A stretch of 34,556 nt of DNA from Armatimonadota bacterium (GTDB taxonomy: Bacteria; Armatimonadota; Hebobacteria; CAIYQO01): positions 1-34,556 of the forward strand of contig JAKPKV010000100.1 of NCBI GenBank assembly GCA_029553475.1. Direction: 5' to 3'. The position numbers were made by a program, and so were the translations under genes. The notes beneath the pieces were generated by a model that saw only the letters and a program-made list of their open reading frames with translations, was not told the DNA's origin and did no database searches. Positions within the stretch are counted from its first letter, which is position 1. Each line of letters begins with the position of its first letter. Shown here in pieces: positions 406-31,038 of the stretch.

Positions 406-612
406 TGTCGCGGGTTGTCACGCTGTCTCGTGCCCTGCGAACCGACCGCTGGTCGGGAACGCCCGCCGTGGCGTTCCTGGTCGCCGCAGGGGTGAGCCGA
501 TGCGGGCGCGAGCCAGCTGTTCGAGGGCGGCTCGACACAAGGGGCACCGGAACGCCACGGAAGGCGTTCCCTACGATGGACGAGGCACGGTATAGCGTGA
601 CGACCCACTACA
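406..612. repeat. Inverted-repeat element, family B, copy 1
   Basis: The arm 406-434 (TGTCGCGGGTTGTCACGCTG...) matches the reverse complement of 584-612 at 23 of 29 positions. Inside are two hairpins built on the same stem: GGAACGCC 456-463 with GGCGTTCC 470-477, and GGAACGCC 549-556 with GGCGTTCC 563-570. A second copy of the outer arms is at 26780-26927. The element lies just downstream of the end of the gene at 638-2509. Confidence 0.75.
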
Positions 613-11990: not shown

Positions 11991-14885
11991 ATGGTCGCCG
12001 ACAGACTCATCCTGTATGTCGCCCCTGATGGCGATGATGCGCATACCGGCAACCTGCCGGAGCCGAATGCTGATGGCACTGACGGCCCGCTGGCGACGCC
12101 GGCGGGGGCGGGGGCGCGGGTACGCGCGGTCCGTGATGGCCGGCCGGTGCGGGTGCTCTTCCGTGAGGGGACGTACGTTCTGCCGGCGACGTGGACGTTC
12201 ACGGCGGAGGATTCGGGCACGGCGGAGGCGCCCGTCACTTACGGCGCCTATCCGGGGGAAGCGCCGGAGTTCAGCGGCGGGCGGCGCATCGGCGGGTGGA
12301 TGACGGGCGAGGTCAATGGCAAGCCGTGCTGGATGGCCCACCTGCCGGAGGTCGCGGCGGGGGAGTGGTATTTCACCCAGCTCTTCGTGAATGGCGAACG
12401 CCGCAACCGGCCGCGCGTGCCGAAGACGGGCTGCTACCGTTTCGCCGGCGTGCCGGACGGCTCGTGGGGCGGGCAGTGGGGGCAGGGGCCGGATTCCGCG
12501 TTCTTCGCTCCCGGTGAGCTGCGAAACTGGTCGAACCTGGCGGACGTCGAGCTGATCGCCTATCAGCTCTGGTTCGAGACCCATCATCACCTCGCCGCGG
12601 TGGATGAGGAAGCGGGGATCGCCCGTTTTTACGCTCGCAGCCTGGGCAGCCTGGTGGATGAGAAAGGTCAACCCGCGCGCTACATCGTCGAGAACGTTTT
12701 CGAGGCGCTGTCCGAGCCGGGAGAATGGTATCTGGATCGCCCGACAGGGACCCTCTATTACCTGCCGCTGCCGGGGGAGACGCCGGAGGAGACGGCAGTC
12801 ATCGCGCCGCGGCTGGAATGCCTGCTGCGGCTGGATGGGACGGACGCGCCGGTGCGATACCTCCGCTTCGAGAACCTGGCCTTCCGGCACGCGGAATGGC
12901 GGCTGGCGCCGGATAACCCGGGGCCGGTGCAGGCGGCGTTCTTCGTGCCTGGGGCGCTGATCCTGCAGGGGGCGGAGCACTGCGTCCTCTACGGCTGCAG
13001 CGTGGCGCAGGTGAGCCAGTATGCCATCGAAGTGCTGAAGCCCAGTTGCGACGTGCGCATCCTCGCCTGCGCGCTGCACGATCTCGGCGCCGGCGGCGTG
13101 AAGATCGGGCATGAGGGGCTGGGATCGCGGTTGGATGGCGAAACGGAAACCGACCAACCGGCGGACGCGCGCGGTATGCGCACCACGGTGAGCGACTGCC
13201 GCATCTATGACGGCGGGCGCATCTTCCCCAGCGCCATCGGCGTGTGGGTCGGCAACAGCGGGCGCAACCGCGTGCGGCACAACGCCATCTTCAACCACTA
13301 TTACAGCGGCATCTCCTGCGGGTGGACGTGGGGGTACGCGCCGACGCTGACGATGGACAACCGCATCGAATATAACCATATCCACACCTGCGGGCAGGGG
13401 CTGTTGAGCGATCTGGGCGGCATCTACCTGCTGGGCACGCAGCCGGGCACCATCATCCGCGGCAACCTCATCCATGATATTGCGAAATACGGCTACGGCG
13501 GCTGGGGCATATACACGGACGAGGGCAGCTCGGAGATACGCATCGAGGGGAATATCGTGTATCGCACGGCGGAGGAGGGGTTCTTTCAGCACTACGGCAA
13601 GGACAATGTGGTGCGCAACAACTTCTTCGCCGACTGCGACGGTTTTGAGCGCGGGCGCGAGGAGCCGCACCGCTCCTTCGTCATCGAGCGCAACGTCATG
13701 CTGGCGCGCGCGGGGCGCGCGCTGGGCTGGCAATGGATGAACGGCCACTTCACCCTGAACGAGAACCTGTATTGGTGCGCGGACGATGCACCGCTGACCT
13801 TCGCGGGCGGCGACTTCGCCGAGTGGCAGGCCTGGGGGCAGGATATTGACGGCCGCGTCGCCGATCCGCTTTTCCACGATCCCGATTCCGGCGCCTTCAC
13901 GCTGCGCGAGGACTCGCCGGCGCTGGCGATGGGCATCCAGCCGCTGCACCCGCTGCCGGCCGGCCCGCGTTTCACCAGCGTGCGCCCGGCGACGTACGAC
14001 GAGCTGCCGGAGGAGGTACTGCCCCCGGCGCGCATCATACAGACGCGGCTGGAGGTGGCGGGGGCGCCCGTGCCGGGCGAGGCGCCGGGAACGTTGGTCC
14101 TCACCGCGCGCAACCTGGGCGAGACGGCGGAGGCCGGGGCGATCGGCGTCAGCGCCAGCGCGGGGGCGGTCATCATCGGCGACCGCCGGCTCACCTTCGC
14201 GCTGGACCCCGGCGAGGCGGCGGAGCTGCGTTTCGGCCTCGACGTGACCGGCGACGATGCGGTGATGGTCAGCACGCATCCGGAGGCGGACGCCGCCGTG
14301 CCCACGGCGCTCTACCTGGCGTTCCCGCGTCCCTGGCGCGTTCGCCGGCTGCCGGAGACGCAGGCGGTGGCTGACGTGCCGGCGGCGCTGGCGGGCGCCG
14401 ACGCGCGCGGGATTGCCGCCGGTCCGCGGACGCTGGCGGAGGTGCGGCTCGGCATCGTCGGCGAAGACGTGGCGCTGCTGGCGCACGTGCGGGATGCCCA
14501 CCCGATCCAGGCGCCGGAAGCGCCGTGGCAGGGATCGTGTATCGAACTGTTTGGCACGATGCCGGAGAGGACCGATATCGGTCAGGTCTTGCTCATTCCC
14601 GCCACGCATCAGGAGCCCGCGCTGGCACTGCGCGCCGGAGAGGACGGCCCGCGGCCCGCGCCGGGCGTTCGCCTGCACACGCTGCGCGCCGACGACGGCT
14701 ATCTCCTCGCCGCGCTCATCCCCACCGCGCTGCTCCGCCTCGACCCGCGGGCCGACCGCGTCCGAATCGAGATCGCGGTGAGCGCCGTGCAGCCCGACGG
14801 CAGCACCCGTCGGGCGACGCTGTTCGGCAGTACGCGGGCGTATATGGACGCGGAGGCGTATAGGGACTTGATAATTGACGCTTGA
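11991..14885 (+). CDS. Right-handed parallel beta-helix protein, GH141-like, with CBM9-like C-terminus
   Basis: 964 aa. The N-terminal LYVAPDGDDAHTG and GPLATPAGA, then FREGTYVLPATWTF and the following block, are characteristic of GH141-type and related beta-helix glycosidases. A parallel beta-helix runs over about 290-570 (repeated N-x-I/V-x-x-N rungs such as NRIEYNHIHTCGQG and IIRGNLIHDI). A CARDB/NEW3-like sandwich lies at about 680-770. From 779 on, a CBM9-like domain shows LLAHVRDAHP and PWQGSCIELF. GH141 contains alpha-L-fucosidase and xylanase members; the activity here is an inference. No signal peptide is visible. The start at 11991 has GGAGGGG a few nt upstream; the ATG at 11979 lies before that Shine-Dalgarno sequence. 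Confidence 0.8.
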   Translation: MVADRLILYVAPDGDDAHTGNLPEPNADGTDGPLATPAGAGARVRAVRDGRPVRVLFREGTYVLPATWTFTAEDSGTAEAPVTYGAYPGEAPEFSGGRRIGGWMTGEVNGKPCWMAHLPEVAAGEWYFTQLFVNGERRNRPRVPKTGCYRFAGVPDGSWGGQWGQGPDSAFFAPGELRNWSNLADVELIAYQLWFETHHHLAAVDEEAGIARFYARSLGSLVDEKGQPARYIVENVFEALSEPGEWYLDRPTGTLYYLPLPGETPEETAVIAPRLECLLRLDGTDAPVRYLRFENLAFRHAEWRLAPDNPGPVQAAFFVPGALILQGAEHCVLYGCSVAQVSQYAIEVLKPSCDVRILACALHDLGAGGVKIGHEGLGSRLDGETETDQPADARGMRTTVSDCRIYDGGRIFPSAIGVWVGNSGRNRVRHNAIFNHYYSGISCGWTWGYAPTLTMDNRIEYNHIHTCGQGLLSDLGGIYLLGTQPGTIIRGNLIHDIAKYGYGGWGIYTDEGSSEIRIEGNIVYRTAEEGFFQHYGKDNVVRNNFFADCDGFERGREEPHRSFVIERNVMLARAGRALGWQWMNGHFTLNENLYWCADDAPLTFAGGDFAEWQAWGQDIDGRVADPLFHDPDSGAFTLREDSPALAMGIQPLHPLPAGPRFTSVRPATYDELPEEVLPPARIIQTRLEVAGAPVPGEAPGTLVLTARNLGETAEAGAIGVSASAGAVIIGDRRLTFALDPGEAAELRFGLDVTGDDAVMVSTHPEADAAVPTALYLAFPRPWRVRRLPETQAVADVPAALAGADARGIAAGPRTLAEVRLGIVGEDVALLAHVRDAHPIQAPEAPWQGSCIELFGTMPERTDIGQVLLIPATHQEPALALRAGEDGPRPAPGVRLHTLRADDGYLLAALIPTALLRLDPRADRVRIEIAVSAVQPDGSTRRATLFGSTRAYMDAEAYRDLIIDA

Positions 14886-14910
14886 CGATGGTACGTGTTC
14901 TCCGCCCACC

Positions 14911-15008
14911 ACCGGGGCCGCGGAGTTGTACTCCGCACGCGTTGGCACGCTCTGTGTTCAACGACAGGGTGAGAGCACTCGTGCGGAGTACAACTCCGCG
15001 GCCCCGGT
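14911..15008. repeat. Inverted-repeat element, family A, copy 1
   Basis: A perfect 29-bp inverted repeat: 14911-14939 (ACCGGGGCCGCGGAGTTGTA...) and 14980-15008, with a 40-nt centre. Each arm contains its own hairpin, GCGGAGT-TGT-ACTCCGC. Further copies lie at 19169-19237 and 26725-26974. It may act as terminator for the beta-helix gene ending at 14885. Confidence 0.85.
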
Positions 15009-15012
15009 AAAT

Positions 15013-15035
15013 GCGTCCCGATTTCATCGGGACGC
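15013..15035. repeat. Hairpin GCGTCCCGAT-TTC-ATCGGGACGC
   Basis: A 10-bp perfect stem with a 3-nt loop directly beside the family A element. A degenerate relative (GCGTCCCGATTGCCTCGGGA) occurs near 27073, again close to a family A copy. Confidence 0.7.
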
Positions 15036-15045
15036 GGTCCCAGTG

Positions 15046-15230
15046 TAACCGTTCAGCCTTGTCAGCATGATGTGGCGTCTGTCCGCCCACCTCTCCCCCC
15101 GCCCCTCCCCTGAGCGGGGAGGGGAGCACCGGATCTGCATACCAATCACTCCCCCTTCCCTCTCTGGGAAGGGGGATGGGGGGTTAGGTTTGGCATCAAT
15201 CGGCGACATGCTGACAAGACTGAACTGTTA
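15046..15230. repeat. Inverted-repeat element, family D, containing two G/C hairpins
   Basis: Arms 15046-15069 (TAACCGTTCAGCCTTGTCAG...) and 15207-15230 match at 22 of 24 positions. Inside are CCCCTCCCC-TGAGC-GGGGAGGGG (15102-15124) and CCCCCTTCCC-TCTCT-GGGAAGGGGG (15151-15175), both perfect stems of a very common bacterial repeat type. The 14886-15280 gap is fully accounted for by this and the neighbouring elements; no gene is seen. Confidence 0.75.
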
Positions 15231-15280
15231 CGTCCCAGTGTCTGCGGAGCATTCAATTGTCAATTTGCATTTTTCAATTC

Positions 15281-16162
15281 CTACTCGGGCGTCATCACCG
15301 TTAACGCTTTTGGCAGCACGCTGATGTCGAGCGGGGTGCTGCCGGCGGGGTCGCCGTCGAGCTGGACGTGCACGTCCGGTTGGGCAGCTATCCGCAGGGT
15401 GCTGGCGCGGAAGAGGGTGACGTTGGGGTGCTGGGCGTGCAGGCCGACGGCGGTGGCCATGAGCTGCGTCACCCGGTCGAGCGCGGTTTGTTCGCCGAAG
15501 ATGCATACGTCCAGCAGGCCGTCATCCATGCGCGCGTCCGGCGAGAGCGAGAGCTCGTAGGTATAGTAGGCGGCGTTGCCGACGATCATCAGCCAGGCCG
15601 GCACGGTGACGGTGAGCGCATCCATGGTTAGCCGGAACTGGCTGCTCTTGTGGACGGCCAGCGCCTGCAGGCCGGCGGTGACGTAGGCGAAGGGGCCGAT
15701 GAGCGTTTTCAGCTCCGGCATGACATCCGCCACCACGCGCGCGTCAAAACCCAGGCCGGCCATCAACGCGAAGGGTTTGCCATTGGCCTGGCCCAGGTCC
15801 ACCCGGCGCGGCGTGCCCTGCAGCGCGACTTTCAACGCGCTTTCCAGCGTGAGCGGGATGCGGAACTCGCGCGCCAGCACGTTCACCGTGCCCACCGGCA
15901 GGATGCCCAGCGCCGTGTCGCTGCCCGCCAGCGCGGGCAGCACGCTATTCACCGTGCCGTCGCCGCCGCCGACGAGGACGCGCGCGAATCCCGCCGCGAC
16001 CGCTGCGCGGGCCGCCGCTTCCGCCTCCGCCGCGGAGGCCGGCAGCGCCATCTCCAGCGCGTGCCCGGACAGCATCGCCGCGAGCTCCACGAGCGCCACC
16101 CGCGCCGCCGGGATATTGCCGGCCTTCGGATTGAGTATCAAGAGGATGCGCATCGTTGCCAT
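15281..16162 (-). CDS. Diacylglycerol/lipid kinase family protein (YegS/DagK-like)
   Basis: 293 aa. The start MRILLILNPKAG is the first strand of the DAGK catalytic fold. VLVGGGDGTVNSV (65-73) is the nucleotide-binding loop, and GILPVGTVNVLAREF (86-100) carries the second conserved motif. The C-terminal beta-sandwich includes DGLLDVCIFG and HVQLDGDP. It phosphorylates a lipid such as diacylglycerol at the inner membrane face using ATP; the exact lipid is unknown. No Shine-Dalgarno sequence is visible at 16162 or at the alternative ATG 16153. It is divergent from the MlaE gene, consistent with a shared membrane-lipid theme. Confidence 0.87.
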   Translation of the reverse strand: MATMRILLILNPKAGNIPAARVALVELAAMLSGHALEMALPASAAEAEAAARAAVAAGFARVLVGGGDGTVNSVLPALAGSDTALGILPVGTVNVLAREFRIPLTLESALKVALQGTPRRVDLGQANGKPFALMAGLGFDARVVADVMPELKTLIGPFAYVTAGLQALAVHKSSQFRLTMDALTVTVPAWLMIVGNAAYYTYELSLSPDARMDDGLLDVCIFGEQTALDRVTQLMATAVGLHAQHPNVTLFRASTLRIAAQPDVHVQLDGDPAGSTPLDISVLPKALTVMTPE

Positions 16163-19141: not shown

Positions 19142-19237
19142 GCGGTGGAGTTGCACTCCGCCCAAACTGGGGCCGCGGAGTTGTACTCCGCACGTAGACC
19201 AGCGCCGTTAGCGTGCGGAGTACAACTCCGCGGCCCC
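19142..19237. repeat. Inverted-repeat element, family A, copy 2
   Basis: A perfect 26-bp inverted repeat, 19169-19194 and 19212-19237, with a 17-nt centre. It is preceded by a lone half-unit (TGGAGT-TGC-ACTCC around 19146-19159). It lies between the convergent murA and secreted-protein genes. Confidence 0.85.
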
Positions 19238-26724: not shown

Positions 26725-26974
26725 CTGGGGCCGCGGAGTTGTACTCCGCATGCATTTCTATACAAGTCTATCAGATACGTGTCGCGGGTCGTCACGCTGT
26801 ACCGTGTCCCGTCGGCGAGCCCTCGGTAGCGCGTGTTGCCGAAAGGAATACCTGGTTGTTTCTCCCCCCACCCGTGGCGTGGAGGGCACGGATCACACCG
26901 CACGGTACAGCGTGACGACCCACGACAGATAATCCATGTGCAGATGCGTGCGGAGTGCAACTCCGCGGCCCCAG
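26725..26974. repeat. Inverted-repeat element, family A copy 3, with family B nested inside
   Basis: Outer arms 26725-26755 (CTGGGGCCGCGGAGTTGTAC...) and 26944-26974 match at 29 of 31 and are family A. Inside them, 26780-26806 (TGTCGCGGGTCGTCACGCTG...) and 26901-26927 match at 26 of 27 and are family B. CTCGACGGCGTCTCGCC just beyond (26984-27000) echoes the repeats at 17347 and 17603. The 26531-27129 gap otherwise holds only the fmdB promoter, and no gene. Confidence 0.85.
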
Positions 26975-27837: not shown

Positions 27838-29859
27838 TCAGTCCAGATTCAACCCCGCCACGTAGTCGTTCAGCTCCTTGCGCAGCGCGCCCTCGCGCTG
27901 GGTGAGCTCTTCGATGCGCTCGCGGAGTTTCTCGATGCGGGTCTCCTGCTCGCCGAGCTTGGCGACGTAGCGCTTGTAGAGATCGGAATTGCGGTCCAGC
28001 GCGCCCATGTTGGAGCGGATGCGGTTCTGCTCGGCGGTGATGGCATTGATCTCCTGCTCGGCGAGATTGCGCTGGTAGCGCAGCTCATTCAGGCGGCGCT
28101 GCATCTCCACCACGCGCTGCATGGCGGCCTTCACCCGGTCGCTCATCTTGCCGGTGGTGATGTAGCCGACCAGCGCGTCGGTGTTCATGCCGGTGATCGC
28201 CAGCGTCTCGCCGGCCTTGCGCTCCTCGACCACCGCCAGCTTCGCGCCCTCCGCCGCCGGCACCTGGCGCACGAAGCGGTACAGATCATTCGTCTTCTCG
28301 TCGGCCTTCTCCGGCTCGATCAGCTCCCAGCCGGCCTGCAGCGGATGCTCGATGATGAGCTTGCGATCTTTCCCGTCGGCGATGGCGGCGATATAGGTGG
28401 CGGTGCGGCGGTACTTGCGCGCGATGTGCAGCATGCCCTGCACCACCTTGAAGGTGAGGATTTCGCTGGTCTCGCGCACGTCCTCGCGCTTCACCTTCAT
28501 GCCGAGATCCACCGCGTAGGAAATCAGCCGGTCCTCGCCGGGCTGCAGGTCTTCCACCACCGCGTCGCCGGCGTAGACGTCATCGCTGTAGACGGTGATC
28601 GGGCCGCCCATCAGGTGCATGCCGGTGGTATTTTTCAGCCGCATGCCGTACATCGGGTGCAGCGAAGAGGGCGAGGAGATGGTCACCTTCCACGCGCCCA
28701 CGCCCTCGGCGATAATCGGCAGCATCGCCGACTGCTGGCGGGGGAGCGTCACCAGCTCCTTCACGGTATACTGGAAGCCCTGGCCGAGATCCTTCGCGGA
28801 GGCGGCGGCCTGCACGGTGTCCGAGTAGGCGCGCAGGCGGCCGGCGACTTCGCCGTTGACCGTGGGCGGTGTCGCCAGCATATTTTCCATTTCACCGAGC
28901 TCAACGCCCCCGCGCAACTGCACGCGCTGGCGCTGATTCATCCTGGGCGTGGCGTTACTATCGTACCCGGCAGCATCCAGCACCGCGCTATACATCACCG
29001 GGCGCAGCGAGGCGAAGCGGGCCGGTTCGTAGACGGGGCGCGGCACGTAGATGGGGGAATACAGGTCCTGGATGAAGCTGACGGGCCGGCCGGAGACGAG
29101 GGAGAGGCGCACATTCTGCCAGTCGGTGTCGCTGGTGTTCTCCACGATCGCCCAGCCCTGCATCAGCGCGTCTTGCTCGCCGAAGACCAGCCGGTAGGAG
29201 GTTTTCCAGATGGGCATCTCGGTGACGTAGCCCACCTTCACCCGCCGCGTGCCCTCGCCGGCGAAGGTGATGCGCACAGGGCGGCGCTGGTTGTCCAATC
29301 CGGAGGCGAGCACGTCCAGCGCGTCGCGCAGCTCGGTGTTCAAGCGCTCATCGGCGATCGCGATATCGGAGATCTCCTCCAGCCGCACCGAGCGGATGCC
29401 GGTGGGGGTGACGAGATTCAGCACCTCCGTCTCCACCACCTCTCCCTCCTTGATGTAGCGCGTTTTCGTCTCCACGCCGAGGACTTTCCCGGTGATGGCG
29501 TTGGTGGCGGTGACGGTGACGGTCACCCCGCGCAGCCGGATGAGCAGCACGGCGATGGAGGGATTGTCGGTGAGGTCAATGGCGTAGGTGGACAGCGTCT
29601 TGCTGATGGGATCCTGGGCGCCGTAGGTGATGGCGCCCACCTTGCCGCCGTCGAGGTCAATGAGCACCAGCGATTTGAGCAGGTCGTTGATCTGCTCGGC
29701 CTTGAAGGAGAGCGTCACCAGGTCATGGCCGGTGACGCTGCCGGTGCGCTGCAGGTAGCCGACGCCGCTGGAATAGAGCACGACGTCGGTGACGGGCAGG
29801 TCGGCCGCGACAGCGGCGAGGGAGAGGACGAGCAGCAGCGAAAGCGCGATGCGGGTCAT
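27838..29859 (-). CDS. DUF4139 domain protein, exported
   Basis: 673 aa. Signal peptide MTRIALSLLLVLSLAAVAA, followed directly by DLPVTDVVLYSSGVGYLQRTG, the typical start of DUF4139/DUF4140-type proteins. A beta-rich centre has VGYVTEMPIWKTSYRLVF, GWAIVENTSDTDWQNVRLSLVSGRP and the DUF4139 core up to about 520. A C-terminal coiled coil (about 555-665: RVVEMQRRLNELRYQRNLAEQEIN...) closes the protein. The family function is not known; it is periplasmic or surface. AGGAGGT 5 nt before the ATG gives a secure start. TATTAT (29914-29919) may be its -10. Confidence 0.88.
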   Translation of the reverse strand: MTRIALSLLLVLSLAAVAADLPVTDVVLYSSGVGYLQRTGSVTGHDLVTLSFKAEQINDLLKSLVLIDLDGGKVGAITYGAQDPISKTLSTYAIDLTDNPSIAVLLIRLRGVTVTVTATNAITGKVLGVETKTRYIKEGEVVETEVLNLVTPTGIRSVRLEEISDIAIADERLNTELRDALDVLASGLDNQRRPVRITFAGEGTRRVKVGYVTEMPIWKTSYRLVFGEQDALMQGWAIVENTSDTDWQNVRLSLVSGRPVSFIQDLYSPIYVPRPVYEPARFASLRPVMYSAVLDAAGYDSNATPRMNQRQRVQLRGGVELGEMENMLATPPTVNGEVAGRLRAYSDTVQAAASAKDLGQGFQYTVKELVTLPRQQSAMLPIIAEGVGAWKVTISSPSSLHPMYGMRLKNTTGMHLMGGPITVYSDDVYAGDAVVEDLQPGEDRLISYAVDLGMKVKREDVRETSEILTFKVVQGMLHIARKYRRTATYIAAIADGKDRKLIIEHPLQAGWELIEPEKADEKTNDLYRFVRQVPAAEGAKLAVVEERKAGETLAITGMNTDALVGYITTGKMSDRVKAAMQRVVEMQRRLNELRYQRNLAEQEINAITAEQNRIRSNMGALDRNSDLYKRYVAKLGEQETRIEKLRERIEELTQREGALRKELNDYVAGLNLD

Positions 29860-30961: not shown

Positions 30962-31038
30962 GGCCCCTTCGTCTAGTGGCCTAGGACGCCTGGTTCTCAG
31001 CCAGGAGATCAGGGGTTCGAATCCCCTAGGGGCTACCA
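30962..31038 (+). tRNA. tRNA-Glu (anticodon CTC)
   Basis: The cloverleaf is complete. Acceptor GGCCCCT pairs with AGGGGCT (first pair G-U), the D-arm is GTCTAGTGGCCTAGGAC, and the anticodon stem CCTGG/CCAGG carries loop TTCTCAG, so the anticodon is CTC. T-arm AGGGG-TTCGAAT-CCCCT. CCA is encoded. It resembles bacterial tRNA-Glu closely. It is transcribed alone from its own strong promoter and followed at once by a 12-bp hairpin. Reads GAG codons, which are favoured in this G+C-rich genome. Confidence 0.95.

Follow-up and report, generated by a model that had tools for sequence, protein, structure and literature searches.

A short inverted-repeat element, family B, lies between the arms of a palindromic repeat, family A, and sequence comparison makes it very probable that B is a non-autonomous miniature inverted-repeat element (MITE), moved by an IS481-like DDE transposase of the same genome, that inserted into a pre-existing A. 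What had been read by eye as a repeat within a repeat becomes an insertion that can be dated and that has an identified parent, a footprint and unoccupied sites, set in a lineage dense in palindromic repeats. The proposal draws together ends common to B and an insertion sequence (IS), 6-bp duplications, A copies that have remained unoccupied and several target positions within A. According to the proposed mechanism, the transposase would recognise the B ends (TGTMGYGGGTCGTCACG..) and insert B into a 6-bp target built around TA, which would be duplicated in the process; the target used here would have been GATAAT, beside the apex of a palindromic, REPIN-like A of ca. 92 bp.

The features discussed below (Table 1) lie in a window of 34,556 nucleotides, the whole stretch of DNA that was analysed, which is contig C158 of a genome of 5.27 Mb in 194 contigs (G000). 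The window also carries a tRNA-Glu (CTC) gene at 30962-31038.

Table 1. Positions of family A and family B features in the window
Feature	Position	Strand	Description
Composite	26727..26972	.	Family A copy 3 (REPIN-like palindrome) with family B at the centre
A copy 3, left arm	26725..26755	+	Itself a small hairpin, GCGGAGT-TGT-ACTCCGC
Left 6-bp target duplication	26774..26779	+	GATACG (unoccupied A: GATAAT)
Family B element	26780..26927	.	148 bp; terminal inverted repeats 26780-26806 / 26901-26927
Right target duplication	26928..26933	+	GATAAT
A copy 3, right arm	26944..26974	-	
A copy 1	14914..15005	.	Unoccupied, 92 bp
A copy 2	19169..19237	.	Unoccupied, short-linker form, 69 bp
Second family B copy	406..612	.	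Outside A; further inverted repeat 455-477 / 549-571

Family B interrupts the linker of a family A repeat

The first-pass annotation had described a B inverted repeat between the arms of A copy 3, a separate B copy and two A copies free of B, and had interpreted the arrangement as one mobile repeat inserted into the loop of another. Each of these placements was recovered. The arms of A copy 3 (31 nt, 94% complementary by inverted-repeat finding in the window) enclose the B arms (27 nt, 96% complementary); A copies 1 and 2 are unoccupied; and the second B copy occupies exactly the interval in Table 1, with no A around it and an extra inverted repeat of its own (GGAACGCC..) inside. The interpretation as an insertion is largely borne out, by the 6-bp duplications, the unoccupied A sites and the IS with B ends.

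In the A subtype of the window copy, those copies that lack B (L090, L096, L112 and L115) have the linker ..TCTATCAGATAATCCATG.. and read ..TATCAGATAATCC.. at the insertion point. The linker of the window reads ..CTATCA-GATACG-[B]-GATAAT-CCATG.., and that of a second nested copy, at locus L113, reads ..CTATCA-GATAAT-[B]-GATACT-CCATG... When the window flanks are joined with the six bases counted once, they are 95% identical to unoccupied L115 over 81 bp, and the L113 flanks, joined likewise, also reach 95% to L115 over 81 bp. Since the GATAAT target belongs to A, A preceded B at this locus. The target duplication that the annotation suggested looking for at the A/B junction agrees at 4/6 positions in the window, at 5/6 in L113 and at 6/6 in L097, a copy in which B lies on the border of an A arm. 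That the window duplication reaches only 4/6 counts against insertion; it may be a duplication that has since mutated.

Repeat recombination, in which B would have come to lie between A arms through the joining of lone A arms or of two B copies rather than through insertion into an intact A, finds some encouragement at other loci: L114 has B inverted, between the left flank of L111/L205 and the right flank seen at L113, and in L079 the left junction is that of one nested B and the right junction that of a different one. It is nevertheless very improbable for the window, whose flanks join into one continuous A with a complete linker once the duplicated 6 bp are counted a single time.

The insertion reading is also supported by the census of A arms, which covered 133 stretches picked for holding A or B among the matches listed, with counts that describe this fetched set and not the whole genome. 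Among 116 arms there were at least 30 unoccupied pairs, at least 4 pairs with B, at least 5 lone arms with an inner-side B, at least 41 lone arms without B and at least 1 far pair. A copies both with and without B therefore exist, B without A is also common, and, with at least 30 A pairs lacking B, it is not the case that all copies are A+B composites. A single A+B family, the B-less copies of which would be deletion derivatives, agrees with the inner junction common to the window and L113 within one A subtype, but it would require that 30 copies had each precisely lost B together with one of the two duplicated 6-mers. Moreover, most of the 60 B terminal inverted repeat (TIR) pairs sit outside A with their own, differing 6-bp duplications, and B is found at other A positions as well (a GTTAAA apex and a CGTGCG arm edge). 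We consider a single family barely credible.

Family B, a probable MITE with an IS481-like parent

The 16-base pattern of the B ends (TGTMGYGGGTCGTCACG / CGTGACGACCCRCKACA), with up to one mismatch allowed, has 171 matches in G000 versus 9 when read backwards, and the A core pattern has 103 versus 0; both repeats are thus far beyond chance. The 60 TIR pairs come from the fetched stretches, and at least L072 and L092 look falsely paired. Perfect 6-bp duplications flank 16 of them, versus 0.25 expected from cross-pairing of left and right flanks, and 5/6 matches flank another eight, versus 1.3 expected. Exact duplications of other lengths were absent at 4, 5, 8, 9 and 10 bp and occurred once at 7 bp. 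The remaining 36 pairs (5 at 4/6, 31 at 3/6 or less) count against insertion; they are as expected for decayed or recombined copies together with some false pairings, and prove nothing. By eye, the flanks of the separate B copy in the window, CCTATC and CCTAAT, are alike at 4/6 positions.

Within the 24 best duplications, position 3 is T in 20 and position 4 is A in 19. This preference, together with the 6-bp length, indicated IS481, and a search with the NCBIfam model NF033577 (IS481) then found the parent. Two complete ISs in G000, of 1021 bp (L173) and 1024 bp (L179/L183), have B-type ends at both termini, with 0-2 mismatches to the B ends over 17 positions in L173 and L179. Both are flanked on either side by GCTAGC, a 6-bp duplication that conforms to NCTAGN, and two further IS right ends, also with GCTAGC, open contigs C102 (L203) and C105 (L204). 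The transposase of L173 has 314 aa; that of L179 lies in two frames. The L173 protein scores 46.3 bits against rve_3 (cut-off 26.5), which places an integrase-type DDE core in it, and its best NCBIfam model is NF033577, at 160 bits (E 8e-47). Because this falls under the curated cut-off of 224 bits, a point that also counts against our reading, we term the parent IS481-like only. A further point on that side comes from the transposase search of genome_contigs, which returned one relative, in a Blastocatellia MAG (L257, 48% identity), around which B-type ends are absent. The mover of the window B was presumably a transposase of the L173 type rather than a lost relative.

The ends of IS481 from Bordetella pertussis begin with TGT, as they do here, and differ past these three bases. 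Its 6-bp duplication, given as NCTAGN in PMC3279416, has a CTAG/TA core like the GCTAGC found here; unlike it, the L173 transposase is only distantly similar to the family, as its score against the family model indicates.

B combines two features of a MITE: TIRs that recur on an autonomous element in G000 and a target duplication of fixed length (6 bp). Like MITEs of ISs in the IS481/IS3 group, it is short, present in many copies and flanked by 6-bp target duplications, with ends common to an autonomous IS in the same genome. Unlike them, it comprises several subfamilies with further palindromes in their own centres, and its parent transposase scores under the curated IS481 cut-off. The inverted repeat GGAACGCC..GGCGTTCC occupies the B centre in the 406-612 copy of the window and in L108, L129, L131-L133, L137 and L141, and other B copies hold GTAGTCCGCGCCCTCCGCGGCGCG; palindromes within palindromes are a habit of this genome. 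Separately, the stretch ATGATCGT.TGTCGTATG stands directly before B at three loci (L111, L114 and L205), and B has therefore also been copied along with flanking DNA.

Family A resembles REPINs

Within the A arm, GGGGCCGCGGAGTTGTACTCCGCACG, lies a small hairpin. Arms are found alone or as inverted pairs, most of which measure 92-93 bp from GGGG to CCCC, and the pairs have several unrelated linkers and form mosaics with other hairpin families. The unoccupied 92-nt copies, folded as DNA, have z-scores between -9.5 and -13. On the outside, A pairs read ACY..RGT, and the base beside GGGG is complementary to its partner in 21 of 27 copies, versus 14.1 expected from cross-pairing. For the same number of pairs (27), no target duplication of A was detected, direct repeats being no more frequent than expected at any of the offsets and lengths tried.

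With the anatomy of REPINs and BIMEs as reference (PMC3116915; PMC3733652), the likeness lies in arms that are hairpins of ca. 26 nt, in their occurrence as singlets and as inverted pairs with a linker that varies, in the mosaics that they form with other repeats and in the lack of a target duplication. The difference lies in the link to RAYT genes and in the tag. Ten Y1-transposase loci in G000 were scanned for a RAYT beside A, and none was found: the sole A arm near a Y1 gene, at L163, is ca. 0.8 kb away, and the other nine loci have no A arm. REP hairpins carry a GTAG or CGTC tag at their foot according to PMC3733652, and neither tag was seen by eye at the A hairpin foot in the printed A arms and flanks. 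We call A REPIN-like rather than REPIN because the tested link to a RAYT gene did not hold. A RAYT origin of A was considered through the same search of the Y1 genes of G000 and their loci, and dropped, as A does not adjoin them. Exact A-arm patterns had no matches in genome_contigs and viral_contigs, two collections that may omit records of the window itself or very close to it.

B occupies several positions in A

At least three positions within A contain B, two of them at the hairpin apex. In coordinates of the 92-bp A, these are 48-53 (GATAAT) and 43-48 (GTTAAA), both at the hairpin tip, and 67-72 (CGTGCG). The GTTAAA site is the apex of another linker type: L098 has GTTAAA/GGTAAA around B and joined flanks 93% identical to unoccupied L068, and matching single junctions were seen by eye in L108, L079 and L103. 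At the border of linker and arm, CGTGCG lies on both sides of B in L097 and its right junction occurs again in L079 and L092; the junction of B with the A arm (CTACA/CGTGCGGAG) recurs in these three loci with differing outer flanks. A TA-containing apex may attract the transposase. B appears enriched in A, although this is suggestive only: a rough Poisson calculation gives P of ca. 0.012 for at least three independent target positions, with inputs that were assumed rather than measured (580 kb of intergenic DNA, 58 copies of B and 4.6 kb covered by A) and with L103 found through A only. The reverse nesting, A inside B, was absent from the 133 stretches; one candidate, L087, proved on reading to be a chance match.

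Age order and spread

The annotation had also derived a relative age order from the nesting. This stands for the insertion event in the window, where A came first and B second, and does not extend to the families. The exact B end pattern has 83 matches in G000, 1 in a genome of the same genus (G001) and 27 in one of the same family but another genus (G002), versus 103, 5 and 0 for the A core, and neither occurs in any of 58 other relatives. Since G002 has B ends and no A core, B as a family cannot simply be called the younger of the two. In alignment, G001 has 29 bp in place of window positions 14867-15287 (ca. 420 bp, including A copy 1), a difference that exceeds A in size and tells only of the variability of this interval. 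For the nested copy, the matching G001 contig starts further on, at window position 27932.

The window and L113 have the same A subtype and the same inner junction, with outer flanks that differ past the A ends. Within the insertion reading, separate insertions of B at the same 6-bp hotspot in the two A copies have a slightly less than even chance. B identities are 92.6% between the window and L114, 89.5% between the window and L113 and 93.9% between L113 and L114, yet the three nested copies were joined in only 16% of 200 bootstrap trees, which is no supported clade; the B copy nearest to that of the window by path, L116, lies outside A; and every A copy of this subtype inherits the TA-core target. 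On the other side, the same subtype, the same six bases and the relatedness of the B copies are also compatible with a single insertion, after which the composite spread. The common inner junction as such suits composite spread and repeated hotspot insertion alike.

Landing of insertion sequences in REP-type palindromes

The ISs listed in PMC1525189 as inserting in REP palindromes belong to the IS3, IS110, IS4, IS256 and IS5 families, with ISRm22 placed at the axis of palindromy. The elements ISPpu9, ISPa11, ISRm22, IS1397 and IS621 described there resemble the present case in inserting into a palindromic repeat with a short duplication; they differ in being whole ISs, whereas a non-coding MITE with an IS481-like parent is found here. 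Elements nested like Russian dolls are mentioned in PMC3852290, and we found no description of an IS481-type MITE inside a REP-like repeat in the titles and opening abstract text of open-licence PMC papers. Nested B-in-A illustrates, clearly and in a datable form, a type of event already known; it is not a new kind of system. With it, the range of ISs landing in REP-type palindromes widens to include an IS481-like element, and nature supplies a case in which to test if palindromic repeats can take other elements with them. A further-reaching and rather unlikely scenario is that the A+B composite spreads as a unit, with the REPIN-like A carrying a DDE-type MITE as cargo, and that the parent IS targets REPs while standing outside the five families listed in PMC1525189.

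The whole parent IS may itself use REP-type palindromes for landing. All four IS copies seen (L173, L179 and those at the starts of C102 and C105) end at GCTAGC beside or inside another hairpin family, J (CCACGGGTTCCGC..CACCCGTGGCTAACGGCT). Two perfect inverted J copies, at 1321-1359 and 1912-1950, surround the Y1 (RAYT-type) gene of L161, an arrangement that is likely a REPtron; at least one RAYT in G000 therefore pairs with J, not A. The window, too, has a J copy, at 223-261, just ahead of the B copy at 406-612.
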